Assembly: GCF_007752535.1 (NCBI RefSeq)
Contig: NZ_CP036426.1
Coordinates: forward strand, 7,812,001 to 7,876,000
Direction: 5' to 3'
DNA: 64,000 nucleotides
Origin: Tautonia plasticadhaerens
GTDB taxonomy: Bacteria; Planctomycetota; Planctomycetia; Isosphaerales; Isosphaeraceae
The notes below the pieces were generated by a model. It did no database searches. It saw nothing but the letters and a program-made list of their open reading frames with translations, and was not told the origin of the DNA. Each line of letters starts with the position of its first letter. Position 1 is the first letter of the stretch. Position numbers and translations under genes: made by a program. Below, in pieces: positions 4,629 through 60,583 of this stretch.

Positions 4629-5587
4629 AGATCCTCATCGCCGAGGACCAGGCCCCCGCCGCCCTCTACCTCCGCCGGACCCTGGAACGCATGGGACACC
4701 GGCCCGCCGTCGCCCCCGACGGCGAGGCCGCCTGGGAGATGCTCGAACGCGACGGCGCCGACGTGCTCATCTCCGACTGGATGATGCCCCGCCTCGACGG
4801 CCTCGGCCTCTGCCGCCGGATCCGGGCCGTCGAGCACGACCGCTATACCTACGTCATCCTCCTGACCGCCCGCAACAACCGGGACGACCGCCTGGAGGGC
4901 CTCCACGCCGGGGCCGACGACTTCCTCACCAAGCCCCCCGACCCCGACGAGTTGAACCTCCGGCTCCAGATCGCCGGCCGGATCCTCGCCGTCCACGCCG
5001 AGCTGGGCCGGCGCAACGCCCGGCTCGCCGAGCTGGCCACCACCGACGCCCTCACCGGCGTCCGCAACCGACGCCGTTTCCACGAGGACCTCGACCTGCT
5101 GCTCTCCCAGGCCAGGCGGCTCCGGGAGCCCCTCTCCCTGGTGATGCTCGACGTCGACAACTTCAAGTCGTTCAACGACTCCTTCGGCCACCCGGCCGGC
5201 GACGAGGTCCTCCGGCGCGTCGGGGCGATGCTCCAGAGCTCGGTGCGCGGCCACGACCTCGTCGCCCGATACGGCGGCGAGGAGTTCGCCGTGCTCCTGC
5301 CGGCCACCGGCACCGAGGAGGCGGTCCTGGTCTCCGAGCGGCTCCGATCCGCCTTCCGATCCGAAGCCTGGCCCCATCGCCCCGTGACCGCCAGCCTCGG
5401 GCTCGACACCGCCGGCCCGGTCGAGTTCCAGGGCGCCGACGACCTCATCCGACGCGCCGACGAGGCCCTCTACCGCTCCAAACGCGAGGGCCGGGACCGC
5501 GTCTCCGCCTTCACCGACCGCCTCGCCGGGCCCGCCCCCTCCCCCCCCGCCGACGCCCTCCCGTCACCCCCTTCCCTCGCCCTCTGA
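4625..5587 (+). CDS. Response regulator with GGDEF domain (diguanylate cyclase)
   Basis: A 320-aa cytoplasmic output protein that should make cyclic di-GMP from two GTP when phosphorylated. The receiver (residues 1-120) carries the acidic pocket E7/D8, phospho-acceptor D51 in S-D-W-M-M-P and the conserved K in L-T-K-P. A linker leads to the D-A-L-T-G-V-R-N-R-R-R-F start of the GGDEF domain (about 140-305). The active-site loop is GGEEF at 217-221. An RxxD inhibitory-site motif (R208-D211) sits exactly five residues before it, so product feedback inhibition is expected. The final 20 or so residues are Pro/Ala-rich and look disordered. The ATG overlaps the upstream kinase stop by 4 bp, implying translational coupling and a kinase-to-c-di-GMP circuit. 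Confidence 0.93.
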
Positions 5588-5632
5588 ACGCCGGGCGGCC
5601 CGCCCGACCAGGCCCGACGGCGAGGGCCCGGC

Positions 5633-7255
5633 TCATGCCCCCTCCTCCTCCCCCGACCCCGACCCCGACGCGGGCCCCGGCCCGGGGAGCCGGACCTCGA
5701 ACGCGGCCCCCTCCCCCTCGACCGAGCGGACACCGATCGATCCGCCCAGCGCCTCGACGAGGCTCTTGCAGATCGACAGCCCGAGCCCGCTGCCGCCCGC
5801 CGCCCGGGACCGGGCAAGGTCGACCCGATAGAAGCGGTCGAACAGCCGGGGGAGGTCGGCCTCGGGGATGCCCGGGCCGGTGTCGACCACCCGGAGCACG
5901 CCGGACCCGCCTTCCACCGCCGTCGACACGACCACCGCCCCCCCGGGCCGGTTGTAGGCGATCGCGTTGGAGATCAGGTTGGTCGCCACCTGGCCGAGCC
6001 GGGCGGGATCGGCCGGCACGACGACGCGATCCCCCCGGACCTCGACCCGGACCCCCCTCCCCTCGGCCATCGGCCCGAGTTGCGAGGCGACCTCCAGGGC
6101 GATCGACCTCAGGTCGACCGGCCCCCGCTTCAGGTCGAGCTGCCCGGCGTCGGCCCGGGCCAGGGTGAGCAGGTCCTCGACGATCCCCCTCATCCGGCCG
6201 GCCGCCCTCCGGCAGGTGCCCAGCGACTCCCGATATTCGTCGGCCGACCGGGTGCGGGCCAGCGCCAGCTCGGCGTGGGTGAGGATCACCGAGAGCGGCG
6301 TCCGCAGCTCGTGGGAGGCGTCGGCGGTGAACCTCGTCTGCTGCTCGAATGCCGATTCCAGGCGGTCGAGCATGTCGTTGAGCGTCGACCCGAGCCGCTC
6401 GAATTCCCGGTCGACGCCGGCGAGGTCGACCCGGTCGGAGAGGTTCCTCGCCGAGATCCCCTCGGCGGTCCGGCCCATCGCCTCGATCGGCCGGACCGCC
6501 CGGCCCGACAGCCACCAGCCGCCGAGCAGGCCGACGGCGAAGACCCCGCCCCCCACCGCGGCCAGCCGACGGGCCAGCCCGCCCAGCTCGGCCAGCTCCC
6601 GGCCGATCGGCCGCCCGACCAGGATCGTCGAGCCCGCCGGGCCCGCGATCACCACCTCTCGCCAGTGGCCCCGGCCCCGGGCCGCCGCCCGGCCCGGGGC
6701 CGGCTGCGGGCGAGGCGGGATCTCCCGCCCGCCCTCCATCGACGCGTCGAAGACCGACCCGTCGGCGCGCCAGACGACGAAGAACGGACCTCCCTGGCCG
6801 GGGGCGGGCGCGTCGGGGCGGCGGGGGGCCCGGGCGTCGAGCCGGTCGGCCAGCCGGCCCCCCGGCCGGCCGGGCCCGTCGCCGTCGGGGATCGGCGGCC
6901 CCCCCCTGAGGCCCGGCGGGCCCCCTCCCCGGCCGGGCGGACCGGGCGGGCCGAAGCCCGGCCCACGGGGCCCATCCGCACCCCGGGAGGGCGGCGGACC
7001 GGGCGGGCCGAAGCCCGGCCGACGGGGCCCATCCGCACCCCGGGAGGCCGGCGGGCCCCCTTGCCGGAGGAACCGACCCGGACGCTCCCGGAGGAACCCC
7101 TCCAGCATCCGGGCCGTCGCCAACAACTCGGCGTCCACCTCGCCCAGCCGGGCCCGGCGCGACTCGGCATAGAGCGCCGAGCCGAACCCGACCACCACGA
7201 GCAGCAGGATCAGGCCGTGCCAGAGCTGGAGCCGCCAGCGGAGCGACCTACGCAT
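5633..7255 (-). CDS. OmpR-type sensor histidine kinase with Pro/Gly-rich periplasmic loop
   Basis: A 540-aa classical inner-membrane sensor kinase. TM1 lies at about 12-30 and TM2 at about 232-250. Between them is a periplasmic loop made unusual by Pro/Gly-rich low-complexity sequence and two copies of a 19-residue repeat. HAMP follows (about 251-303), then HisKA with H315 in A-S-H-E-L-R-T-P, then HATPase with the N box (N-L-I-S-N-A-I) and G1 box (D-T-G-P-G-I-P). It overlaps the upstream response regulator by 8 bp, so the two form a two-component operon read on the minus strand. The organisation resembles metal- or envelope-stress sensors such as the CusS/QseC type, but the ligand cannot be told from sequence. 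Confidence 0.92.
   Translation of the reverse strand: MRRSLRWRLQLWHGLILLLVVVGFGSALYAESRRARLGEVDAELLATARMLEGFLRERPGRFLRQGGPPASRGADGPRRPGFGPPGPPPSRGADGPRGPGFGPPGPPGRGGGPPGLRGGPPIPDGDGPGRPGGRLADRLDARAPRRPDAPAPGQGGPFFVVWRADGSVFDASMEGGREIPPRPQPAPGRAAARGRGHWREVVIAGPAGSTILVGRPIGRELAELGGLARRLAAVGGGVFAVGLLGGWWLSGRAVRPIEAMGRTAEGISARNLSDRVDLAGVDREFERLGSTLNDMLDRLESAFEQQTRFTADASHELRTPLSVILTHAELALARTRSADEYRESLGTCRRAAGRMRGIVEDLLTLARADAGQLDLKRGPVDLRSIALEVASQLGPMAEGRGVRVEVRGDRVVVPADPARLGQVATNLISNAIAYNRPGGAVVVSTAVEGGSGVLRVVDTGPGIPEADLPRLFDRFYRVDLARSRAAGGSGLGLSICKSLVEALGGSIGVRSVEGEGAAFEVRLPGPGPASGSGSGEEEGA
6936..7049. repeat. 57-bp tandem duplication inside the sensor kinase gene
   Basis: Two nearly identical 57-bp units (6936-6992 and 6993-7049; I see one base difference, C/G, over the first 55 bp) encode a 19-residue Pro/Gly-rich repeat, S-R-G-A-D-G-P-R-(G/R)-P-G-F-G-P-P-G-P-P, in the periplasmic loop of the kinase. 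The unit is a multiple of three, so copy-number changes would keep the reading frame. Confidence 0.85.
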
Positions 7256-15671: not shown

Positions 15672-16806
15672 AGGGGCCCTCGGAAAGCGCCGAGCGGAGG
15701 ACCGGCTCGAAGACGTCGGCCATCCGGAAGAAGCCGAGGTCGGTCGGGTGGGAGCCGTCGACGGTCCCCTCGGTGTCGTCGCCGAGCTGGGGGTCTCCCG
15801 GCAGGTAGGTCAGCCCCGGCACGCCGTCGGCCACCAGGCGGTCGAACTCCTGCTTCAGCGCGGCCCGGCTGGTCGCGTTGCGTTCCCGGGCGGAGGAGAC
15901 GAGCGGGGCGTTGGAGTAGGTCCGGTCCTCGGCCAGCACGATCGGGGTGTCGGGATGGGCCTCCCGGAGGGTCCGGACGAGGGGCCCGACCCGCTCCTCC
16001 ACCTCCCCGGCGTCCATGTTCGGCAGGCAGTCGATGACGTAAGCGGCCGGATCCAGCTCGGCCAGCAGCCCGGCCACCTCGGCCTCCATCCGGCCGTTGC
16101 CCGAGAAGCCGAGGTTGATGACCGGCCGGTCGAGCCTCCGGCCGAGGATCGCCGTGTGCACCATCCCCGGCCGGGAGGCGCAGCCCCCCTGGGTGATCGA
16201 GGTGCCGTAGAAGACGATCGGCCTCGAACTCGCCTCGGGCCGGGGCGTCGCCTTCGAGAGCGAGGCCCCCTCCGGGATCCCGATCTCGACCGAGGACACC
16301 CCGTTATAGAGCGGCAGGTACAGCAGGTATTCGCGAGGGCCGCCCTCGATCCCCGAGGCCAGGGTGCCCGTGTTCGTCGGCGCCTGCTCGGGGCGGCCGT
16401 AGCCGAGCCACTGCCAGCGGTCGCCGACCCTGGCGTAGAGGTCCAGCCCGCTGACCCCGGTGGCCGGCATGTGGGGCATGTCCAGGCGGTCGGAGGTCAG
16501 CGTCCATCGGGCCTTGATCGTCGGGGCGTCGGTCTCGAACCGCACGCAGAGCCCCGCCGAGTGCCGGCTGAGGCCCCAGACCGCGTCTCGCACCACCCCC
16601 TCGGCCCGGGCCGGCAGACGGTCGAAGGGCGCCTTCGTGTCGTCCCAGCCCTGGCCCTCGATCCCGAGCAGCTGGATGTCATACCAGCGGGTCGAGTCTC
16701 CCGGGTCGGTCCTCGCCAGGGACGGGTCGATGACCTCCTGGGCGTCGCTGGAAGTCGGGGCGAGGAACCCGGCAAACACGAAGGCGAGTCCGGCGATTCG
16801 AATCAT
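15670..16806 (-). CDS. Secreted SGNH/GDSL-type hydrolase
   Basis: A 378-aa exported esterase-like protein with a signal peptide (M-I-R-I-A-G-L-A-F-V-F-A-G-F-L-A). An N-terminal accessory domain contains G-L-D-L-Y, the hallmark of the GxDLY domain that precedes Lipase_GDSL_3 domains. The SGNH hydrolase domain follows with G-T-S-I-T-Q-G-G (nucleophile Ser), G-F-S-G-N-G (oxyanion Gly/Asn) and a C-terminal D-G-S-H-P-T-D (Asp/His). All four catalytic blocks are present. Likely substrates are acyl groups on carbohydrates or lipids. The ATG at 16806 directly precedes the signal peptide; the long upstream extension of the frame runs into the repeat region and is rejected. Confidence 0.88.
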   Translation of the reverse strand: MIRIAGLAFVFAGFLAPTSSDAQEVIDPSLARTDPGDSTRWYDIQLLGIEGQGWDDTKAPFDRLPARAEGVVRDAVWGLSRHSAGLCVRFETDAPTIKARWTLTSDRLDMPHMPATGVSGLDLYARVGDRWQWLGYGRPEQAPTNTGTLASGIEGGPREYLLYLPLYNGVSSVEIGIPEGASLSKATPRPEASSRPIVFYGTSITQGGCASRPGMVHTAILGRRLDRPVINLGFSGNGRMEAEVAGLLAELDPAAYVIDCLPNMDAGEVEERVGPLVRTLREAHPDTPIVLAEDRTYSNAPLVSSARERNATSRAALKQEFDRLVADGVPGLTYLPGDPQLGDDTEGTVDGSHPTDLGFFRMADVFEPVLRSALSEGP

Positions 16807-17964
16807 CGGTGCGGTCCTTGATCGTTCATCGCAGTCGCGTCGAGGCCGGCCCGGGGCTTCGGACCGGGACCTCGGATGTCCAGGAGGCTGGGGCACGTTC
16901 GGCCCGAGGGGACCTCCCCGAGTGGGCCGATGTACCCGAGGCGGCCCCGAGGCATCAATGCCCTGCCCCGGAGGCAAAGCCATCCGACCCGGGCCGCCGG
17001 CCGCTCTCGACACACCGCTCCGCCTCCGCCCTCGGAGTCGGTCGCAGTCCACCGACACCCCCGATCGGTGCGCCGGGGAGGGGCCCCGGCGGCGGTCGGT
17101 GCGCCAACAAGACGAACGCCCAATCTTCGCAACCATCGTCCAGCAATTGCGTTGCAGAAACCGAAATGGCTTCGCTCCGTTTCGGCGCATCGGGCATTCG
17201 CCCCAAGCTGGGCCGCCCGGGTGATGGGCCAGTCGGTCACGCTCCTTCCCAAGCGTCGGACTCGGGGTCCGGGGGAAGGAACGGGATCGGTGCGCCGTTG
17301 GTGCGCCGAGCCGAATCTCGCAACCCCTGACGAACGGACACGTTGCGAAAAACCAAATGGCTTCGTTCCGCGCCGGGACGCGGCGACGGGACGAGTGTCC
17401 GTCCCTGGCTCGGCCCGTCGGGGAGGTCGACGCGGGCAATCCCCCCGGATGGGGTGTCGGTTCAGGGCCGGGAGGGGGTCGGTGCGCTTCCGGACAGGGC
17501 CGGCCAAGCCACTCAAAGGATTCCGCGAGAACAGGTTGCAGAACGAAAAATGGCTTCGCTCCGCGCCGACGCGACGACGCCTGAGACGGCCCTCCCCGAT
17601 CGTCGAGCCAGCCGACAGGGGAGGGATCATCGCCCCCGACGCCGGGGACCGCCGGGCGGGGATGGGGCAGGCGCGATCGGTCCCGCCCCCGGGTGAGGCC
17701 GGGGGGCATGGTCGGTCGGGCATCGGTCGTGAGGGGCTCGGCTCGACGATCGGCACCGGAGACGCTCTGCGCAGGGCGGGACGGCGGGGCCGTACGGCCG
17801 GCCCCTCCCCATAAAGATCGTGGGACGGGCCGATTCCAGTCACATAATCCGGCGAGGTGGCGACCCCGAGGCCGGATGGGGGTTGGTCGTCGGGACGACT
17901 GGGAGGGAATCCGAGGGGGCCGCCGACTTCGAGTCGGGCCTCCAGGCCCCCCCGCTGCGGGCTG
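16807..17964. other. Gene-poor region with tandem repeats
   Basis: About 1.16 kb without a gene I can support. Both strands carry long open frames, but their translations are Arg/Pro/Gly-rich and shadow-like. The structured feature is the three-copy ~192-bp tandem repeat centred on 17096-17567. The stretch upstream of it and the stretch 17570-17960 show nothing further that I recognise. Confidence 0.65.
17096..17567. repeat. Three tandem copies of a ~192-bp intergenic unit
   Basis: Each unit opens with tcggtgcgc (17096, 17287, 17479) and, 68-69 bp later, carries a strongly conserved core: gttgc(a/g)..aa.. followed by aaatggcttcg(c/t)tccg at 17164-17179, 17355-17370 and 17548-17563. Period is 191-193 bp. 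The sequence between the conserved blocks is much more diverged. I see no coding signal; possibilities are repeated regulatory sites, a small structured RNA family or decayed mobile DNA. Confidence 0.75.
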
Positions 17965-47484: not shown

Positions 47485-48936
47485 GTGACGAAGGTGAAGG
47501 CCTGGACCAGCGGCGAGTCGGGAGAGCCGGGGTTCGCCGAGGCGTTCGAGGTCGCCAGGAAGGCGGTGCTGCAAGTCACGGACATCAAGACGAACCGGAA
47601 CAAGTACTACGCCATCGAGTTGCACTCGGCCGAGGGGTGCGAGTACCGCTTCCGGGTCTTCACCCACTACGGCCGGACCGACGACCTGGAGACCAATCCG
47701 GACGCCGGCCAGAAGGAGTGCCGCTACTTCTCGTCGCTCGCCGAGGCCGAGTCCTGCTTCCAGCAGATCTACCGGCAGAAGACCTCGGCGTCGAAGGGCT
47801 ATCGGGAGGTGGCGCTGGCCTCGACCAGGATCGGCTCCCACCAGGCCCGGGGCACCGGCGCCGGCGAGATCGACGCGAAGACCCTGGAGCGGCTCGCCCG
47901 GGCGAAGGCCGCCGAGAAGAACGGCCGGCCGGCCGAGCCGCCGGCCAGCCGGCTCTCGCCCGGCGTCTCGGATCTCGTCCGCTACATCTACGACGAGGCC
48001 AAGGGCGCCCTGACCGACACCGTCGCCGCCCGGATCACGGCCAACGGCATCGAGACGCCGCTGGGGATCCTCACCCTCGGCCAGATCGAGAAGGGGGAGG
48101 CGATCCTCCAGGCCGCCTACGACCTGTTCAACAAGAAGCGCGCGAAGGACCGGGACGAGCAGTTGACCCGCCTCTCGGGCGAGTTCTATTCCGCCATCCC
48201 CCACCGGATCGGCCGCTCCCGGGCCGCCGTCGACGCCGCCGTGATCAGCTCGCTGGAGGCGTTCGCCCAGAAGCAGCAGACGCTCCAGCTGATGAAGGAC
48301 ATGCTCCAGGTCAACGGCGAGGGGGGGGACGTCCTCTTCTCCTCCCGCGTCGACCGCGAGTACGAGGCCCTCGGCACCCGGATCGAGTGGGTCGACCCCG
48401 CCGACCGGGAATTCAAGGAGCTGTCGAAGGCCGTCATCAAGAGCCAGGTCAAATCCAAGACGATCGCCGTCAAGAACCTCTTCCGGGTGCGACGAGACGC
48501 CGAGTGGGGGCAGTTCGCCGATGGAGTCGGCAATGATCGCCTGCTGTACCACGGGTCCCGGATCTCGAACTGGGTGGGCATCCTCTCCCGGGGGATCCTG
48601 CTGCCGAAGATCGTGGTGAGCATGGGCGTCCACCGCACCGACGCCGGCTGGCTCGGGCACGGCATCTACTTCGGGGACGCCGCCTGCACGAGCCTCTTCT
48701 ACACCACCCCCGGGCGCAGGAAGACCCGGCTGATGGCCATCGCCCGGGTGGCGCTGGGCAAGATGAAGGACTACACCAAGATCACCTACGGCCTGACCGA
48801 GCCCCCCAAGGGCTTCGACAGTTGCCACGGCGTCCGGCGCAAATTCGGCCGCCCGTCGGAGTTCGCCGACGACGAGTACGTCATCTACCGGCCCGAGCAG
48901 CAACGGCTCGAATACCTCGTCGAGTTCACCGGTTGA
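47485..48936 (+). CDS. PARP1-like ADP-ribosyltransferase (WGR, helical regulatory domain, catalytic domain)
   Basis: A 483-aa enzyme expected to move ADP-ribose from NAD+ to proteins or nucleic acid. Residues 25-115 form a WGR domain (N-K-Y-Y-A-I-E-L, F-T-H-Y-G-R-T-D, A-E-S-C-F-Q-Q-I-Y-R-Q-K-T). Residues about 155-275 match the PARP regulatory domain (S-D-L-V-R-Y-I-Y-D, T-P-L-G-I-L-T-L-G-Q-I, F-Y-S-A-I-P-H). The catalytic domain has the complete triad: H356 in L-Y-H-G-S-R, Y395 in G-H-G-I-Y-F-G-D and E464 in D-D-E-Y-V-I-Y. H-Y-E is the combination linked to chain-forming PARPs. There are no zinc fingers or BRCT domain, so DNA sensing would rest on the WGR domain, as in PARP2/3. GTG 47485 is the best start. 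First gene of the retron operon; 15 bp precede the macrodomain gene. Confidence 0.9.
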   Translation: MTKVKAWTSGESGEPGFAEAFEVARKAVLQVTDIKTNRNKYYAIELHSAEGCEYRFRVFTHYGRTDDLETNPDAGQKECRYFSSLAEAESCFQQIYRQKTSASKGYREVALASTRIGSHQARGTGAGEIDAKTLERLARAKAAEKNGRPAEPPASRLSPGVSDLVRYIYDEAKGALTDTVAARITANGIETPLGILTLGQIEKGEAILQAAYDLFNKKRAKDRDEQLTRLSGEFYSAIPHRIGRSRAAVDAAVISSLEAFAQKQQTLQLMKDMLQVNGEGGDVLFSSRVDREYEALGTRIEWVDPADREFKELSKAVIKSQVKSKTIAVKNLFRVRRDAEWGQFADGVGNDRLLYHGSRISNWVGILSRGILLPKIVVSMGVHRTDAGWLGHGIYFGDAACTSLFYTTPGRRKTRLMAIARVALGKMKDYTKITYGLTEPPKGFDSCHGVRRKFGRPSEFADDEYVIYRPEQQRLEYLVEFTG

Positions 48937-48951
48937 GGGGAGGAGGGACGA

Positions 48952-49692
48952 ATGGACATCCGGGTCGTCCTCGTGGACGTGAATTCGAAGGTCGTGGCCG
49001 CCTGGCGGTCAACCTTCGAGGAGAACCCCGAGGTGGAGGTCGTCAGCGGCTCGATGCTCGACCAGCGGGTCGACGCCTGGGTCACCCCCACGAATGCCCG
49101 GGCCAGCATGGACGGCGGCCTCGATGCCGTCATCAAGAACCACCTCGGCAAGGGGATCGAGAAACGGGTCCAGGCCGAGGTCCGGCGGCTGCACGGCGGG
49201 TTGCTCCCCGTCGGCAAGGCGGTCTGCGTGCCGACCGGCTCGGGGCGCCCCTCGTTCCTGATCTCGACGCCGACGATGATGGGCTCATCGGAGGACATCA
49301 GCGACTCGCTCAACGTGGCCGCCGCCTGCGCCGCCGCCTTCCAGGCGGTGCACATGCAGAACGACCGGGAGCCCGGCAGCATCGGCTCGGTCGCCCTACC
49401 GGGGCTCGGCGCCCAGACCGGTCGCGTCCCGGTCGAGATCTGCGCCGACCTGATGTGGACCGGGTACACCCTCTTCCGCCGCCGCGTCCTCTTCGCCGAC
49501 TTCGCCGAGATGCGGGCCGCCCTGGAGGCGGAGCTCGGGCCGCTCGGCACCTCGGCCACCTTCCCGGGCTCGCCGAAGTCCAAGGCGAAGTCCGAGGGCG
49601 GGCCATCGCCGACCACTTCGGCCCCGGCCTCGGCAGCCTCGAATGGCCATCCGGCGGGCCCGCCCGCCGACGAAGACTTCGACGATTTCTGA
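48952..49692 (+). CDS. Macrodomain protein (ADP-ribose binding or hydrolysing)
   Basis: A 246-aa protein. Residues about 5-185 form a macrodomain: D-A-W-V-T-P-T-N-A-R (N49 at the ribose-binding position), M-D-G-G-L-D-A-V-I in place of the usual G-G-G-V-D loop, L-P-V-G-K-A-V-C-V-P-T-G, and the phosphate-binding loop G-L-G-A-Q-T-G-R-V-P near 151-160. A Ser/Pro/Ala-rich tail ends in acidic D-E-D-F-D-D-F. GGAGG lies 7 bases before the ATG. Placed 15 bp after the PARP gene, it is the natural reader or eraser of that enzyme's product, possibly an antidote. Whether it hydrolyses or only binds ADP-ribose cannot be read from sequence. Confidence 0.85.
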   Translation: MDIRVVLVDVNSKVVAAWRSTFEENPEVEVVSGSMLDQRVDAWVTPTNARASMDGGLDAVIKNHLGKGIEKRVQAEVRRLHGGLLPVGKAVCVPTGSGRPSFLISTPTMMGSSEDISDSLNVAAACAAAFQAVHMQNDREPGSIGSVALPGLGAQTGRVPVEICADLMWTGYTLFRRRVLFADFAEMRAALEAELGPLGTSATFPGSPKSKAKSEGGPSPTTSAPASAASNGHPAGPPADEDFDDF

Positions 49693-49743: not shown

Positions 49744-52278
49744 ATGATCCCGGAACCGGTGCGGCTGCACAACCCGACCGGGCCCGACCGCGTGGCCGTC
49801 GTCTCCGCCGCCGAGGCCTGGGGGACGCCCGGCTCCTTCCACGTCCTCGTCGCCCGGGGACCCCGGGCCGGCAAGCTCGGCATGGGCACCACCTACGGCC
49901 CCTTCACGGTCGAAGAACTGGCCGACCGCTTCGCCGAGGTCGTCGCCGCACTGGGGCTCGAACTGTTCGCCGAGGCCGGACGATCGCTCCTCATCGACGC
50001 CCTGCTCGACGCCCGCCCCCAGGTCCGGGCCCGGGCCGCCGCCCGCCTCGGCTGGAGGCGCGACCGGGGCGCCGTCGGGCCGCTCATCGCCGCGCTGGCC
50101 TCGGCCGAGGGGGAGACCTGTGCCCTCCTCGATGCCCTCGGCGCCATCGGCGACCCCGTCGCGATCCCCGCGGTCCGCCCCTTCGCCGGCCGCAAGCTCC
50201 TCTCCCGACGCCGGTCGGCCGTGGAGGCCTTGCGGCTCCTCGGCGACCTCGAAGGGCTCGCCGAACACGCCGATCGCATCCGGGCCACCTTGCCCGAGCC
50301 GCTCCTGACCGCCCTCGACGCAATCGACCCGGACGACCCGCGGCCGGGGGCCGAGGACGCCATCGTCTCGGTCTTCCCCTCCGTCGAGGATCAATACCGG
50401 GGGCTCGCCCTGGACACGCTTTACGAGCTGGGGACGCCGGTCGCCGTCGCCGCGATCCGAGCGGTCCTGCCCGGCCTCCGATTCGATCGCGTCTATCACT
50501 GGCGATACCTCAAGAGCATCTACAAGCGGTCGATGCTCCGGCACGACGCCGTCACTTTCGGCCTGCTCAGCCACGCCATCGAGGCCAGGGGGAGACAGAC
50601 AAAGGGGGTCGCGGCCTCGGTCAAGTCGGGACTCGACGGCGGCGTCCATCACACCCGGATCTTCGCCCGACCGACCCAGCGCTATCTCCGTCGACTCGCC
50701 TGGCGATACCTCCGCAACCTCGCCCGACACCGCCCCGACCGGTACGCCGCCGCCGCCGCCGAGGCCCTCGTCCCGTACGGGCCCGAGGACGCCCGGGAGC
50801 CGTCCGGGCTCTACGGCGCATTTGCCGACTGCTACCTCCTGAACCGCATCCTCCACAACCAGGGCGACCGCCTCGTCCTCGACCATTCCCGCCTCTCGTT
50901 CCGATGGCGAGACGCCGATTCGTTCCGGGCCCCGGCCGATCGCCGGGAGGAGGCATTCCCCGATCGGTGGGACGCCCATCCCCGTGCCTACCTCCGCCTG
51001 CTCGGTTCTTCGCGACTGCCCTCGGTCCACGCGTTCGCCCTCCGGGCCGTCGAGGAGCGACATCGAGACATCCTCGGCGACGCGTCCGTCGAGGAGTTGT
51101 TGCCGATGCTCCGGGCCCCCCACGAGCCGACCGTCCGGCTCGGCCTCGACGAGCTGCGGCGTCGGTTCGACCCCGAGCACCCCGACCTCCTGCTCGTCGA
51201 CCGGCTGATCGCCGACCAAATCCCCGAGGCCCGAGAGCTCGCCCGGTCCTGGCTCCGGGAGTCGAGCCCCCTCTGGACCCGGGACGCCGAGTGGGTCGTC
51301 CTCTTCACCACCTCCGGCGACCCGGACCTCTCGATGCTTGCCGCCGGGCTGGCCGCCGACCGCCTCAAGAGCGACCCCGGGCTGCGCCGGATCCTCTCGG
51401 CCCGCCTGCTCGACCTGTTCCGACAGCCCGAGGCCCAACCGGGCTCGCTCGACGCCTACCTCCTGATCGCCCGGGATGCCCTGCTCGACGACCTCGACGA
51501 GCAACTCGACCTGGATACCCTGATCCACCTCATCCTCACCGGGCCTCCCCAGGCGCAGGCCCTCGGCGGGGATCTGCTGGCGAGGCGGCCCGAGGCGGTC
51601 GAGAAACTCGGTCTGGAGGGTCTCTCCCAGCTCGCCAATCACGAGATCGCCGCCGTCCGGGCCGCCACCCATGCCCTGCTCCGTCTCGCCGTCGACCGCT
51701 TCCGAGACGACCCGGGCCCGCTGCTGATGCTCGTCGAGAGTGACTGGCCCGACACCCGAGTCGTCGCGTTCGGCTTGCTCCGGGATGGGCTCGGACCCGA
51801 CGTCCTCGGCCCCCCCGGCCTGATGGGCCTGCTCGACTCGAATCGGGTCGACGTCCAGGACGTGGCCCGGGTGCTCGTCCTCCGGCACGTCGACCGCTTC
51901 GACCCCGTCGAACTGGTCCCCCGGCTGGTCGAGCACCCTCATCCGAATATGAGGCGGTTCGCGCTCGACCTCGTGATCGACCACCTCCCCGACGGGGCCG
52001 AGGCCCTCGACCGCCTCTCCTGGTTCTTCCGAGCCGCCCTCTTCGACCTCCGGCCCGAGCGGCCGGTCAAGCGACGCATCATCAACTTTCTCCGCGACCG
52101 GGGCCTCCGGGACCCGTTCCAGGCCCGTGTCGCCGCCGAGCTGCTCGGCGACTTCGCCCGATCGGCGACCCGGTCCGACGCCGACCGGGCGTTGCACGCG
52201 GTCGTCTCGATCCTGATCGCGCACCCCGACACGCCCTCCGACGTCTCGATCGGCCACTCGGCGGGAGGCGTCGCATGA
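49744..52278 (+). CDS. HEAT/ARM-repeat protein, probable retron accessory component
   Basis: An 844-aa protein. The first ~75 residues are a separate beta-rich module (F-H-V-L-V-A-R-G-P-R-A-G-K, T-T-Y-G-P-F-T-V-E-E-L-A) resembling no catalytic domain I know. From about residue 80 to the end it is a string of paired helices of HEAT/ARM type (V-R-A-R-A-A-A-R-L-G-W-R-R-D-R-G-A-V-G-P-L-I; H-E-I-A-A-V-R-A-A-T-H-A-L-L; H-P-H-P-N-M-R-R-F-A-L-D). It has no transmembrane segment or signal. It is a large alpha-solenoid scaffold, consistent with the ARM component I recall from type XIII retrons. It lies 51 bp after the macrodomain gene and overlaps the next gene by 4 bp. Confidence 0.8.
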   Translation: MIPEPVRLHNPTGPDRVAVVSAAEAWGTPGSFHVLVARGPRAGKLGMGTTYGPFTVEELADRFAEVVAALGLELFAEAGRSLLIDALLDARPQVRARAAARLGWRRDRGAVGPLIAALASAEGETCALLDALGAIGDPVAIPAVRPFAGRKLLSRRRSAVEALRLLGDLEGLAEHADRIRATLPEPLLTALDAIDPDDPRPGAEDAIVSVFPSVEDQYRGLALDTLYELGTPVAVAAIRAVLPGLRFDRVYHWRYLKSIYKRSMLRHDAVTFGLLSHAIEARGRQTKGVAASVKSGLDGGVHHTRIFARPTQRYLRRLAWRYLRNLARHRPDRYAAAAAEALVPYGPEDAREPSGLYGAFADCYLLNRILHNQGDRLVLDHSRLSFRWRDADSFRAPADRREEAFPDRWDAHPRAYLRLLGSSRLPSVHAFALRAVEERHRDILGDASVEELLPMLRAPHEPTVRLGLDELRRRFDPEHPDLLLVDRLIADQIPEARELARSWLRESSPLWTRDAEWVVLFTTSGDPDLSMLAAGLAADRLKSDPGLRRILSARLLDLFRQPEAQPGSLDAYLLIARDALLDDLDEQLDLDTLIHLILTGPPQAQALGGDLLARRPEAVEKLGLEGLSQLANHEIAAVRAATHALLRLAVDRFRDDPGPLLMLVESDWPDTRVVAFGLLRDGLGPDVLGPPGLMGLLDSNRVDVQDVARVLVLRHVDRFDPVELVPRLVEHPHPNMRRFALDLVIDHLPDGAEALDRLSWFFRAALFDLRPERPVKRRIINFLRDRGLRDPFQARVAAELLGDFARSATRSDADRALHAVVSILIAHPDTPSDVSIGHSAGGVA

Positions 52279-53969
52279 TCGCCTCGCACCGCTACGCCGG
52301 TCGGAGCGGCATCGTCAACGGGCCCTCCTCCGCCCGGGTCTCCTTCGCCACCGACACGTTCCGGGAGCCGACCTTCTTCCGGGGCACGATCGGCCGCCCC
52401 GTGGTCTTCCGGGAGGCCCTCGCCGCCCTGTACGAGGTGGTCGTCAGCGACTTCGCGTACCGCCCGAAAGACCGCCTCGAATACAGGGCCTGGCTCGAGG
52501 AGCAGGACCGAAAGTTCCTCGCCGGGCTCGGCCTGAATCGCATGCGAGACCTCGGACGAGCCGAGCAACTCCAGGCCCGCCTCGCCGAGCTTGACCGCGC
52601 CCGGCTCGAGCGCCTCAAGCCGTTCCACCGGGCCCGGATCGACTATTTCCAGTATGCGTATACCAACTGGTTCGAACGTTCCCTGATCCTCGACCCCGTG
52701 GTGACGGTCCACCCCGACGAGGTCTCCTTCGAGGCCTTCTCCCGGGACGAGAGCACCTATGCCCGCCTCGCCGCCGCCCACGAGGCATTCGACCGGGTCG
52801 ACGAGTTCGAATGCGGCACCACGAACATCGACTTCAGCCCCCGATTGCACGGCGAGCTGGAGCGAATCCGCTCCTACCGCCGCACCCGGCTCGACGTCGG
52901 CCCTACCGGCCTGGCCGTCGCCACCGAGGGCGATGAGGGCCACGTCGAGAAGAAGATCGAGCTGCCGGATTCCTGGGTCTCCGGATTCCTCCAGGTCCAC
53001 AGCGCCATGTCGCTCGGCCTGACCCGGCTCCGCCTCGCCCCGGTCGACCTGTTCAACATCTGCCGGGCGTTGCGTCGCCGGCGGGCGAGGACCTCCCCGA
53101 GGGCCCTCCGCTACGAGCTGGAGCCGGGGCGACCCGCCAGGGTCGTCCTGGAGCCCTGGGAGCAGGTCATCCAGCTCTCTCCCGCGTCGACCTTCGAGGG
53201 CTCGAAGCCCGTCGTGGTCCGCACCTGGGGCCGAGACCGGCTTTGGACCCTGGCCCGCCTGATCCCCGCCTGCCGGTCGGTCGACGTCCACCTCGCCGGG
53301 CTCGGCCTGCCGAGCATCTATGTGCTCGACCTCGGGCCGATCCGTTTCACCCTCGCCCTCTCCGGCTGGACCGACAACGATTGGACCTCCGGCGGCTCGA
53401 AGTTCGACCTCCTGGCCCGCCGCCTCGACGTCTCCTCGGGCGAACTCTCGCGTTCGTATGAAACCTTGAGGTCGCTCCGCCTCGCCACCGACGCCGATCT
53501 CGCGGAGCGTGCCGGCCTCGGGGTCGAGAAGGCCCGAAGCGCCCTGTCGTTCCTCTGCCAGGTCGGGAGGGCCATGTACGACCTCGGCGGCGGTGTTTAC
53601 CGGCACCGGGACCTGTTCCTGGAGCCGTTCTCCGCCGATCAGGCCGCGACGCAGGTGAAACAGGCCCCCGCCCCGGCCGGCTCCAGCGAGGCCAAGGCCC
53701 ATGCGATCGTCGATCACTCCGGCATCCGGATCATCGCCCGGCGTCCGGTTTCCACCGGCTACAAGGTCAGCGGCAGCGCCACCGATTCCGGCGGCCGACG
53801 CGTCCGCCCGTTGCTCCATGTCGACCTCGACGGCCGGATCGTCGAGGGCTCGTGCACCTGCCGGTCGTTCGCCAGGCACGGGATGACCAGGGGGCCCTGC
53901 GAGCACCTCCTGGCGCTCCGACTGGCCCACATGGAACGCCTCGAACAGGAGGACCGACCCGACGCGTGA
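52275..53969 (+). CDS. Winged-helix / SWIM zinc-finger protein, probable retron accessory component
   Basis: A 564-aa protein. A classical SWIM zinc finger sits at the C-terminus: C527-x-C529-x12-C542-x-H544. Residues about 395-470 form a winged-helix-like segment (S-S-G-E-L-S-R-S-Y-E-T-L-R-S-L, D-L-A-E-R-A-G-L-G-V-E-K-A-R-S-A-L-S-F-L). The N-terminal two thirds are long and mixed alpha/beta, unrecognised. SWIM fingers bind nucleic acid or protein. The combination matches the winged-helix-SWIM partner I recall from type XIII retrons. ATG overlaps the HEAT gene stop (ATGA). A 416-bp gap containing the retron RNA follows. Confidence 0.82.
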   Translation: MIASHRYAGRSGIVNGPSSARVSFATDTFREPTFFRGTIGRPVVFREALAALYEVVVSDFAYRPKDRLEYRAWLEEQDRKFLAGLGLNRMRDLGRAEQLQARLAELDRARLERLKPFHRARIDYFQYAYTNWFERSLILDPVVTVHPDEVSFEAFSRDESTYARLAAAHEAFDRVDEFECGTTNIDFSPRLHGELERIRSYRRTRLDVGPTGLAVATEGDEGHVEKKIELPDSWVSGFLQVHSAMSLGLTRLRLAPVDLFNICRALRRRRARTSPRALRYELEPGRPARVVLEPWEQVIQLSPASTFEGSKPVVVRTWGRDRLWTLARLIPACRSVDVHLAGLGLPSIYVLDLGPIRFTLALSGWTDNDWTSGGSKFDLLARRLDVSSGELSRSYETLRSLRLATDADLAERAGLGVEKARSALSFLCQVGRAMYDLGGGVYRHRDLFLEPFSADQAATQVKQAPAPAGSSEAKAHAIVDHSGIRIIARRPVSTGYKVSGSATDSGGRRVRPLLHVDLDGRIVEGSCTCRSFARHGMTRGPCEHLLALRLAHMERLEQEDRPDA

Positions 53970-54101: not shown

Positions 54102-54327
54102 GGAGGGAGGCAGCGGTCCCATTAGCCGATCGTGCGGCGATACGCCGCGCAGGTCCCCGTGCCCGACACTCGTCACGCGCCCGACCGCCATCTGCGGCCG
54201 GGGCACCGACCAGGCCCTCGCCTGGTTCGGTTGCTCCGCAACCCGAGGGCCCCGGTCGGTGCCCCGGCCGCTCCAGTTGGCCGGTCGCGTCCGAAGGATG
54301 TTCGTAGCGGGACCGCTGCCTCCCCCC
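54102..54327 (+). ncRNA. Retron msr-msd noncoding RNA (predicted)
   Basis: The gap between the SWIM and reverse transcriptase genes has the layout of a retron ncRNA. A 16-bp perfect inverted repeat, GGGAGGCAGCGGTCCC at 54105-54120 and GGGACCGCTGCCTCCC at 54309-54324, gives the a1/a2 stem; two further pairs extend it past one mismatch. Directly inside a1 is ATTAGC (54121-54126), the usual setting of the branching guanosine (G54125). An msr-type hairpin follows at 54132-54150 (GCGGCG-ata-CGCCGC core). The msd is a long hairpin: 18 perfect pairs 54194-54211 with 54254-54271, 8 pairs 54213-54220 with 54244-54251, and a terminal GGTTGC-tcc-GCAACC at 54229-54243. An outer extension pairs 54182-54190 with 54278-54287. 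The msDNA would be roughly 100-125 nt. Prediction from sequence only. Confidence 0.85.
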
Positions 54328-54385: not shown

Positions 54386-55780
54386 ATGAATGAAGACGAG
54401 AAGGCCCGCCTCTACCGAGAGGTCACCCGGTCCGCCTCCGAGTCGGCGGTGCTCCGCCGGATGCACGCCCTCGGCTTCTGGCCGCACGGCGAGGGCCTGC
54501 CGCCGGATCCCCCGGAGGAACACGCCGAGCGTGCCCGGATCGAGGCCGAACTGGCCGACCTCCGCCGGACGCACGCCCGGGTCGAGGATCCGGAGGCCGC
54601 TCTCGTCGAGGAGCGTCGCCGGCGCTGGGAGGAGAGCAAGGCCCGCCGGGCCGAGGCCAGGGCCCGGCGCCTCCAGGAACAGCAGGTACGTCGGGAGGAA
54701 TGGGACCGCCACCGCTCCTCGACCATGGTCCATGCCGGGATCGGCGTCAGCGCCGGACTCCAGGACGCTCGATCGGACGAGGAGGCCCTCTCCCGCCGCG
54801 GCCTGCCGGTCCTGCACCGGGCCGAGGATCTCGCCGGGCAGATCGGTATCGAGCTGGGAGCCCTCCGCTGGCTGACCTACCACCGACGATCCGCCTCCGT
54901 CGTCCACTATCACCGCTACGAGATCGCCAAGAAGACCGGCGGCGTCCGCTGCATCTCCGCCCCGAAGCCGGCCCTGGCCTTCGCCCAGCGCTGGGTCTTC
55001 GACCAGATCCTCCGGCGGCTCGACCCCGAGCCCCAGGCCCACGGCTTCGTCCCCGGGCGGTCGATCGTCACGAACGCCTCGACCCACGCGGGGCGGGCGG
55101 TGGTGGTGAATCTCGACATGAAGGACTTCTTCCCCTCGGTCACTTTCCGCCGCGTGAAGGGGCTGTTCCGCGCGATCGGCTACTCCGAACACCTCGCCAC
55201 CGTGCTCGCCCTGCTCTGCACCGAGCCCCCCCGAGTGCCGGCCACCCTCGACGGCAAGACCACCCACATCGCCCTGGGGGACCGCGTCCTCCCCCAGGGC
55301 GCCTGCACCAGCCCGAGCATCACCAACGCCCTCTGCCGTCGCCTCGACCGAAGGCTGGACGGCCTCGCGCGTCGCCATGGATTCACCTACACCCGGTACG
55401 CCGACGACCTCACGTTCTCCGGCGACCGCCCCGCCGTCGTCGGCCGCCTGCTCCGCTCCGTCCGCTCAATCCTCGCGGCCGAGGGGTTCGTCGAGCACCC
55501 GTCCAAGACCCGGATCATGCGTCGGGGGGGCCGCCAGGAGGTCACCGGCGTGACGGTCAATGACCGGCCGAACGTCTCCCGACGCGAGTTGCGCACCCTC
55601 CGAGCAATCCTGCACAACGCGGCCCGCCTCGGCCTTGAGAGCCAGAACCGGGAGGACCATCCCGACTTCGCCTCGCACCTTCGCGGCCGGGTCGAATTCG
55701 CGTGCATGGTCGATCCGTCCCGGGCCGGGACCTACCGCGACGCGCTGTCGCGGGCCCTCCAAGGGCCCGGCGCCCCTTGA
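54386..55780 (+). CDS. Retron reverse transcriptase
   Basis: A 464-aa RNA-directed DNA polymerase that should copy the msd of the RNA just upstream into branched msDNA. Retron-specific marks are present: N230-A-S-T-H234 (the NAxxH motif) and V386-T-G388 (the VTG triplet). Polymerase motifs: N-L-D244-M-K-D-F-F, L-P-Q-G-A-C-T-S-P (302-310) and catalytic Y338-A-D-D341. The first ~140 residues are an extension with a highly charged coiled coil (about 60-110), longer than in small retron RTs. ATG 54386 is chosen; a TTG at 54359 is possible. A CGGGCCCT-cca-AGGGCCCG hairpin at 55751-55769 overlaps the last codons and may aid termination. No separate promoter is evident. Confidence 0.93.
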   Translation: MNEDEKARLYREVTRSASESAVLRRMHALGFWPHGEGLPPDPPEEHAERARIEAELADLRRTHARVEDPEAALVEERRRRWEESKARRAEARARRLQEQQVRREEWDRHRSSTMVHAGIGVSAGLQDARSDEEALSRRGLPVLHRAEDLAGQIGIELGALRWLTYHRRSASVVHYHRYEIAKKTGGVRCISAPKPALAFAQRWVFDQILRRLDPEPQAHGFVPGRSIVTNASTHAGRAVVVNLDMKDFFPSVTFRRVKGLFRAIGYSEHLATVLALLCTEPPRVPATLDGKTTHIALGDRVLPQGACTSPSITNALCRRLDRRLDGLARRHGFTYTRYADDLTFSGDRPAVVGRLLRSVRSILAAEGFVEHPSKTRIMRRGGRQEVTGVTVNDRPNVSRRELRTLRAILHNAARLGLESQNREDHPDFASHLRGRVEFACMVDPSRAGTYRDALSRALQGPGAP

Positions 55781-60351: not shown

Positions 60352-60583
60352 CCCAGGGCTTTGAAGGTGGACTGATGCGTTCGCGGAGGCCCTGTTTTTC
60401 GGGGCTTCGCCGGGCTCGGGTGGGACGCCAGCCGGCCCGGAGGGCTCGAATCGCGAGCCCCACACCCCCGGCGGGCGGCACCGACGGCTCGACCTCGGAC
60501 AACGGAACTGCCGCCACCTCAAGGATTAATGATTCACGAACACCGACTCTACTTGGCCATCAGTCCACCTTCAAAGCCCTGGG
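60352..60583. mobile_element. MITE-like element with 26-bp perfect TIRs and 7-bp target duplications
   Basis: Terminal inverted repeats are perfect over 26 bp: 60352-60377 begins CCCAGGGCTTTGAAGGTGG, and 60558-60583 is its exact reverse complement. They are flanked by the direct repeat TCCAAGG at 60345-60351 and 60584-60590, a 7-bp target duplication. The 232-bp element has no gene large enough for a transposase, so it must move, if at all, with an enzyme encoded elsewhere. The perfect repeats suggest recent insertion. It lies between the glycosyltransferase operon and thyA. Confidence 0.85.

Follow-up and report, generated by a model that had tools for sequence, protein, structure and literature searches.

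A predicted type XIII retron of Tautonia plasticadhaerens in one operon with a PARP-type ADP-ribosyltransferase and a macrodomain protein

We analysed a stretch of 64,000 nucleotides from Tautonia plasticadhaerens (termed the window; it lies at 7.81-7.88 Mb on the first contig, in a genome of 9.4 Mb) in which the gene for a reverse transcriptase (RT) is preceded by a structured non-coding RNA (ncRNA). We consider it probable that positions 54105-54324 are the msr-msd of a type XIII retron and that this retron represents a separate subtype that includes a PARP and a macrodomain protein, an assessment that includes the mechanism with the PARP as effector. The operon lies on the + strand and consists of five genes and the RNA in the order WGR-PARP, macro, HEAT, SWIM protein, ncRNA and RT. 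The structure and conservation of the RNA, the identity of the RT, the conservation of the five-gene operon across phyla and the intact catalytic residues were observed directly. The best reading of these genes and their predicted folds is that the locus would be an anti-phage retron with a PARP-type ADP-ribosyltransferase as its effector.

Structure and covariation of the non-coding RNA

The SWIM gene stops at 53969 and the RT gene starts at 54386, which leaves a gap of 416 nt, compared to spacings of 15 nt, 51 nt and one 4-nt overlap in the remainder of the operon (coordinates of the open reading frames). A reading of the bare sequence that preceded this work (the original prediction) had placed an msr-msd in this gap, described as the only large one of the operon, as indeed it is. 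The a1 arm (GGGAGGCAGCGGTCCC, 54105-54120, + strand) has its exact reverse complement in the a2 arm at 54309-54324, confirming the perfect repeat of 16 bp. The motif ATTAGC (54121-54126) adjoins a1 and contains G54125, the predicted guanosine of the 2'-5' branch. It is followed by the expected compact msr hairpin, at 54132-54150, whose arms are GTGCGGCG (54132-54139) and CGCCGCGC (54143-54150). A basal helix (54175-54186 with 54279-54290) surrounds the msd hairpin at 54194-54271, and the motif GTTCGTA (54300-54306) is found shortly 5' of a2. The msd hairpin has the predicted length of 78 nt and the predicted stems of 18 bp and 8 bp; the apical stem of 6 pairs was not recovered, the short stem at the tip being 4+3 pairs in RNAfold and 5 pairs in the consensus. 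Folding with RNAfold, a check proposed at the outset, gave a minimum free energy of -160.5 kcal/mol (z = -9.73) and none of 200 dinucleotide shuffles folded as well; together with the covariation described below, this agrees with the original view that the arrangement is very unlikely to arise by chance. Three sites in the 64 kb have perfect inverted repeats of 16 bp with a span of 50-400 nt: a1/a2, the msd stem and an unrelated element at 60352-60583. In an Rfam scan of the window no family reached its gathering threshold, and the matches in the ncRNA region (miRNA, antisense and other families) were weak and far under the gathering score, so that no named family could be assigned.

The same RNA architecture was found in the SWIM-RT gap of every complete locus of the first sets of relatives. 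Fifteen RNAs from 14 loci in three phyla were aligned with most of the a1/a2 arms left out; locus L080 contributed two tandem RNAs, and L110 and L111 are split loci. The RNAalifold consensus has 47 pairs, and in 29 of them both sides are changed in at least one sequence. On this structure 93.5% of the cells are paired, a figure biased upward by the fact that the structure was drawn from the same alignment; the changes on both sides carry more weight. Both sides were changed in 133 cells, compared to a mean of 42.1 in shuffled alignments, none of 500 shuffles being as high, and pairing fell to 32-43% when the partners were slid by 1-3 columns. Covariation in homologous loci, whose absence had been set beforehand as a refuting outcome, was therefore strong. 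The 8 pairs of the msr hairpin are paired in 100% of the cells in the 15 sequences, with double-sided changes in 2 of them; the basal helix (9 consensus pairs, 95.6% of cells paired) has 5 invariant pairs and 3 with double-sided changes; in the msd stem, 16 of the 18 pairs show double-sided compensatory changes. G54125 and the C of ATTAGC are invariant in 15/15 RNAs, as are the C, the G and the last A of GTTCGTA (positions 189, 190 and 192 of the aligned core).

The sequences of a1 and a2 vary among most loci, yet the two arms are complementary inside each; identical arms were found between the two Tautonia and between L079 and L081. Across 27 matches, from the window to L171, arm length ranges from 10 to 30 bp (G-U allowed), and in 19 of these a foreign a2 never yields an arm of equal length. 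Such an arm is obtained with five to seven of 38 foreign a2 sequences in L112, L165 and L166, and with one or two in the other five matches. The position of ATTAGC directly inside a1 holds for the window but is not universal: TTGC takes its place in 11/11 loci of the sister subtype with a WGR-HEAT protein, and the distance from a1 to the motif is 1 nt in the window, about 30 nt in L155 and about 60 nt in L087. In L080, from a metagenome-assembled genome (MAG) of Planctomycetota, two tandem copies of the ncRNA (16670-16898 and 16915-17148), with differing msd stems and a1/a2, precede a single RT.

A covariance model built from the alignment matched 16/16 type XIII loci outside its training in one set, always in the SWIM-RT gap. 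Scores were 136-159 bits in L155, L156 and L168, 24-38 bits in L172 and L173, and 45-97 bits in the sister WGR-HEAT loci (11/11). None of 12 loci of a more distant RT group was matched. In the 9.4-Mb genome itself the model found a single place (150 of 16,800 first-look candidates scored), and it had no match in the second type XIII locus of that genome (L045). Matches in L043, L040 and L039, which lie far upstream of the RT with a1/a2 unclear, are not claimed, and neither is L117.

The element at 60352-60583 has a perfect terminal inverted repeat of 26 bp flanking about 180 nt, and similar ends occur on contig C6 (74700-75110); it is probably a small non-autonomous insertion element.

The reverse transcriptase and its operon partners

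The RT (54386-55780, +, 464 aa) scores best against the PADLOC model RT_XIII (2e-163), the next model being RT_other (3e-114). It carries YADD (338-341), NASTH (230-234) and VTG (386-388), where YADD, NAxxH and VTG are what we take to be retron RT motifs; YADD, the N, A and H of NAxxH and VTG are invariant in 13 aligned RTs. In a profile search the best match among solved structures was the RT of Ec86 (1e-60). With the covarying ncRNA adjacent to the gene, these features are consistent with the original prediction that the RT would be a retron enzyme with its own template. In a tree of 71 RTs, those of the PARP subtype form one group of 16 rows (13 operon, 3 split; support 100/98) and those of the WGR-HEAT subtype a separate group of 11 rows (100/100); L156, L158 and L052 (near-copies or same locus), L041 (same locus as L074) and RTs shorter than 250 aa were excluded. 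The closest named relative found was Tautonia sociabilis, with an RT 78% identical. Searching viral contigs with the RT alignment yielded 206 relatives; among the best 80 of the 206, none exceeded 41% identity.

The first gene of the operon (47485-48936, +) encodes a protein of 483 aa, the proposed effector, with a WGR domain (Pfam 1e-10), the helical domain PARP_reg (9e-17) and a PARP catalytic domain (4e-29), all three above cut-off. The catalytic triad H356, Y395 and E464 is invariant in 15 aligned proteins, and the closest solved structures by profile are PARP4 (7e-67) and PARP2 (2e-43), the latter match including the WGR. The macrodomain protein (48952-49692, +, 246 aa) matches Pfam Macro (2e-10) and, under its cut-off, the NCBIfam ADP-ribose-binding family (4e-16); its structure model resembles the macrodomains of yeast YMX7, macroH2A, DarG and YmdB. 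Neither the PARP nor the macro protein matched a PADLOC model at E 0.01. The HEAT/ARM-repeat protein (49744-52278, +, 844 aa) scores against PADLOC WGR_XIII (2e-109, the best stretch being profile positions 113-535) and HEAT-ARM_XIII (3e-70), and no Pfam WGR was detected on it at E 0.01.

The fourth protein (52275-53969, +, 564 aa) matches PADLOC SWIM_XIII (7e-181) and Pfam SWIM, and the residues of its C-terminal zinc finger (C527, C529, C542 and H544) are invariant in 13 sequences. An AlphaFold2 model was made from 13 sequences, and in a Foldseek search with it all 50 rows shown were PCNA-type clamps. Alignment to human PCNA with VIA-align gave Z 18.1 and a root-mean-square deviation of 3.0 over 223 of the 245 PCNA residues, at 13% identity; the program states Z 7-8 as typical for models with no clear match. 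Residues 34-367 are thus predicted to adopt a two-domain fold like the PCNA sliding clamp, a prediction that concerns the fold and not ring formation. The name SWIM_XIII does not reveal this fold. The more unusual features of the locus, namely the PARP, the macrodomain and the clamp-like protein, had no place in the original prediction.

Other type XIII RTs were encountered during these searches. The second one of the same genome (L045, C1:3323461-3340732) is accompanied by a giant upstream open reading frame of 2226 aa and a SWIM protein, with a gene resembling by eye the methyltransferase rsmH between SWIM and RT. Of 45 genomes from the window's family, 25 have matches to RT_XIII (E <=1e-60), and 13 of these 25 have at least two. 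For a separate group of RTs (about 1e-90; L061-L068 and L070-L073), tblastn showed no SWIM partner.

Occurrence of the PARP gene with and without the retron

We gathered 24 PARP loci: the window, five from genome searches and 18 from a contig scan that finds close relatives only. The scan loci are assigned to Planctomycetota, Myxococcota or 'Deltaproteobacteria', and one to a Lysobacterales MAG. The complete series PARP-macro-HEAT-SWIM-ncRNA-RT is present on one contig in 14 of the 24 (the window, L074, L077, L078, L079, L080, L081, L083, L086, L087, L090, L112, L155 and L156), and the gene order is identical across three phyla. In three genomes the PARP lies apart from HEAT-SWIM-ncRNA-RT (L082/L110, L088/L111 and L157/L168), the contig of L111 beginning within the HEAT gene. 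Contig ends occur at four PARP loci (L075, L076, L084 and L159). In L074 (10001-14797), a low-coverage contig of Tautonia sociabilis, the PARP gene is apparently frameshifted near its end and codon 328 of the HEAT gene is an in-frame stop; the operon is decaying there, or the assembly is faulty. Six plasmid records carry a PARP, at 24-36% identity.

A fair test of the association between PARP and retron is offered only by a sample of one phylum, the 377 genomes of Myxococcota, to which G437 belongs (L079, Myxococcaceae). RTs of the subtype were taken at an identity of at least 55% and E <=1e-158, the next RT standing at 5e-129. The PARP was found in 7 of the 377 genomes and the subtype RT in 6, all 6 being PARP-positive (Fisher 2e-12, uncorrected for relatedness); in two of these (G438 and G654) PARP and retron are unlinked. 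G693, with a partial PARP at a contig end and an RT 47% identical, was counted as PARP-positive without a subtype RT, and no genome was dropped. In the window's phylum the PARP is present in 2 of 392 genomes, the window's own included.

The position of the WGR domain differs between the subtypes. Pfam WGR was detected on two sister WGR-HEAT proteins (L167 at 3e-6 and, weakly, L160 at 0.002) and not on a third (L165); the window has it on the PARP, and none was detected on its HEAT protein. The WGR is likely a docking module because it stands on the HEAT protein in the sister subtype and on the PARP here, and this domain exchange provides the best hint of a connection between PARP and retron via the WGR. 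In L160, a myxobacterial type XIII retron, a gene for a protein with a WGR and a beta-propeller (5520-6956) precedes the WGR-HEAT gene, and its product is possibly a further accessory.

Proposed mechanism, competing explanations and known systems

From what is established for retrons, a1 and a2 would pair, the RT would prime at G54125 and the msd hairpin would be copied into branched multicopy single-stranded DNA (msDNA). The domain set suggests that the particle of RT and msDNA, together with the HEAT and the clamp-like SWIM proteins, keeps the WGR-PARP inactive or presents DNA to it. Autoinhibition by the helical domain could then be lifted when a phage interferes with the msDNA or when the WGR binds DNA ends; the freed PARP would spend NAD+ on ADP-ribosylation of its targets and growth would stop (abortive infection), with the macro protein serving as an antidote that reverses or limits the modification. 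Whether retron RT-DNA controls a PARP1/2-like poly- or mono-ADP-ribosyltransferase in this manner, together with a macrodomain protein as antidote and a PCNA-like clamp, is in our judgement an evenly balanced matter. Passages of PMC12948488 report an NAD-consuming effector for retron Ec86, which provides a precedent.

The inverted repeats themselves might be a terminator, the remnant of a mobile element or chance palindromes of G+C-rich DNA, given that the aligned RNA core is 73% G+C and that the window has a further perfect inverted repeat at 60352-60583. Such a reading has become extremely improbable: it is refuted by the compensatory changes in 29/47 pairs and by the drop from 93.5% to 32-43% paired in the slid controls, and the position in the SWIM-RT gap across loci and the single match in the genome also weigh against it. 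The main rival accepts a true type XIII retron and takes PARP-macro for an independent ADP-ribosylation module that is a frequent neighbour (in a defence island or as a toxin-antitoxin-like pair), the effector being the HEAT/SWIM pair. Other type XIII retrons do have HEAT, SWIM and RT with no PARP, and three genomes have the PARP at a separate site. In L085, L089 and L091 (3/24) the PARP-macro pair has no adjacent HEAT-SWIM-RT and no close RT partner, the best RT of these genomes being 43-45% identical and lying next to a SWIM gene in another region; the pair may therefore exist independently. This explanation appears unlikely when set against the order of genes and RNA, constant over three phyla, and the 6 RTs recovered from 377 genomes, all with a PARP (2 unlinked). 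The single group of 16 RT rows, all from PARP-positive genomes (most found via the PARP), and the WGR found on the window's PARP and undetected on its HEAT protein, compared to two of three sister HEAT proteins scanned (one weakly), argue in the same direction. A further explanation makes the PARP a sensor or repair signal: it would be switched on by the ends of msDNA or phage DNA, and ADP-ribosylation, with the macro protein as its reader, would recruit the clamp and HEAT proteins and block phage replication with no suicide. The domain set does resemble that of the eukaryotic DNA-damage response (a PARP2-like array of WGR, helical domain and ADP-ribosyltransferase, a macro reader and a PCNA-like clamp); according to passages of PMC12548924, retrons usually work through a toxic effector. 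We regard this alternative as rather doubtful, and the findings presented here do not separate a toxin from a sensor or repair role of the PARP.

Several further points weigh against a retron with the PARP as its effector. The msDNA, the enzyme activity and the defence are predictions only, and the roles of the HEAT and clamp-like proteins are guesses. The clamp model has a mean pLDDT of 72, and the macro protein is a putative ADP-ribose binder or hydrolase. The rows of the PARP subtype were for the most part gathered via the PARP, and no macro gene was detected next to the PARP in L157. On the side of the RNA, a second msr hairpin in the window (CGTG/CACG, 54158-54161/54174-54177) has no covariation support in relatives. 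Of 32 other type XIII loci in a second set, mainly from the window's family, the covariance model recognised only 10; some of the hits lay far upstream of the RT, and the weakest had no clear a1/a2.

If the retron with a PARP effector is real, it would be an antiviral complex made of parts of the eukaryotic DNA-damage response (end sensing by WGR, poly(ADP-ribose) signalling and its reversal, a sliding clamp), and it would hint that parts of PARP signalling originate from, or were exchanged with, anti-phage immunity. The PARP, macrodomain and clamp-like protein of that signalling are united in one bacterial locus, making a link between PARP and immunity testable. Retron type XIII itself is already known, reportedly from the classification of Mestre et al. 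2020, and looks little studied. In the literature searched, no paper linked retrons to a PARP-type effector, to WGR or to a clamp-like fold in type XIII, and PARP-type ADP-ribosylation, proposed here from the conserved operon, was not found described as a retron effector chemistry. The ncRNA of the PARP-macro subtype was not found there either; the main type XIII classification lay outside this search and an earlier description is possible. At least two type XIII subtypes now have a concrete msr-msd through the alignment and covariance model, which allows a direct search for msDNA. With its sequence-tolerant msd stem of 78 nt, the retron could also serve as a tool for RT-DNA production.

Ec86, with its homologous RT (profile match 1e-60), is a type II-A retron with the same layout of a1/a2, branch G and msd. 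Its effector is of the ribosyltransferase type, resembling nucleoside deoxyribosyltransferases and unlike a PARP, and to our knowledge Ec86 has no HEAT, clamp or macro protein. DarT/DarG is a toxin-antitoxin system that, like the locus described here, pairs an ADP-ribosyltransferase with a macrodomain. It differs in having no retron, we know of no WGR-PARP character in DarT, and the macro model of the window matches DarG as one macrodomain among several. Bacterial PARPs with WGR, PARP_reg and catalytic domain and the H-Y-E triad are described for Herpetosiphonales and Clostridioides difficile CD160 in passages of PMC5966428 and PMC4245714, and share domain order and triad with the window's PARP. 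PMC5966428 makes no mention of a reverse transcriptase or genomic context, and PMC4245714 mentions reverse transcriptase only as the name of a substitution model. PCNA and the 9-1-1 clamps have the fold predicted for residues 34-367 of the SWIM protein (Z 17-18); the latter differs by its low identity (8-14%), a long helical insertion and the fused SWIM zinc finger. Type XIII retrons are the nearest known systems in that the RT, SWIM and HEAT proteins score strongly against the PADLOC type XIII models and the same ncRNA family adjoins the sister type XIII RTs, and the window differs from them by a WGR that is on the PARP and undetected on the HEAT protein, and by the addition of the PARP and macro genes.
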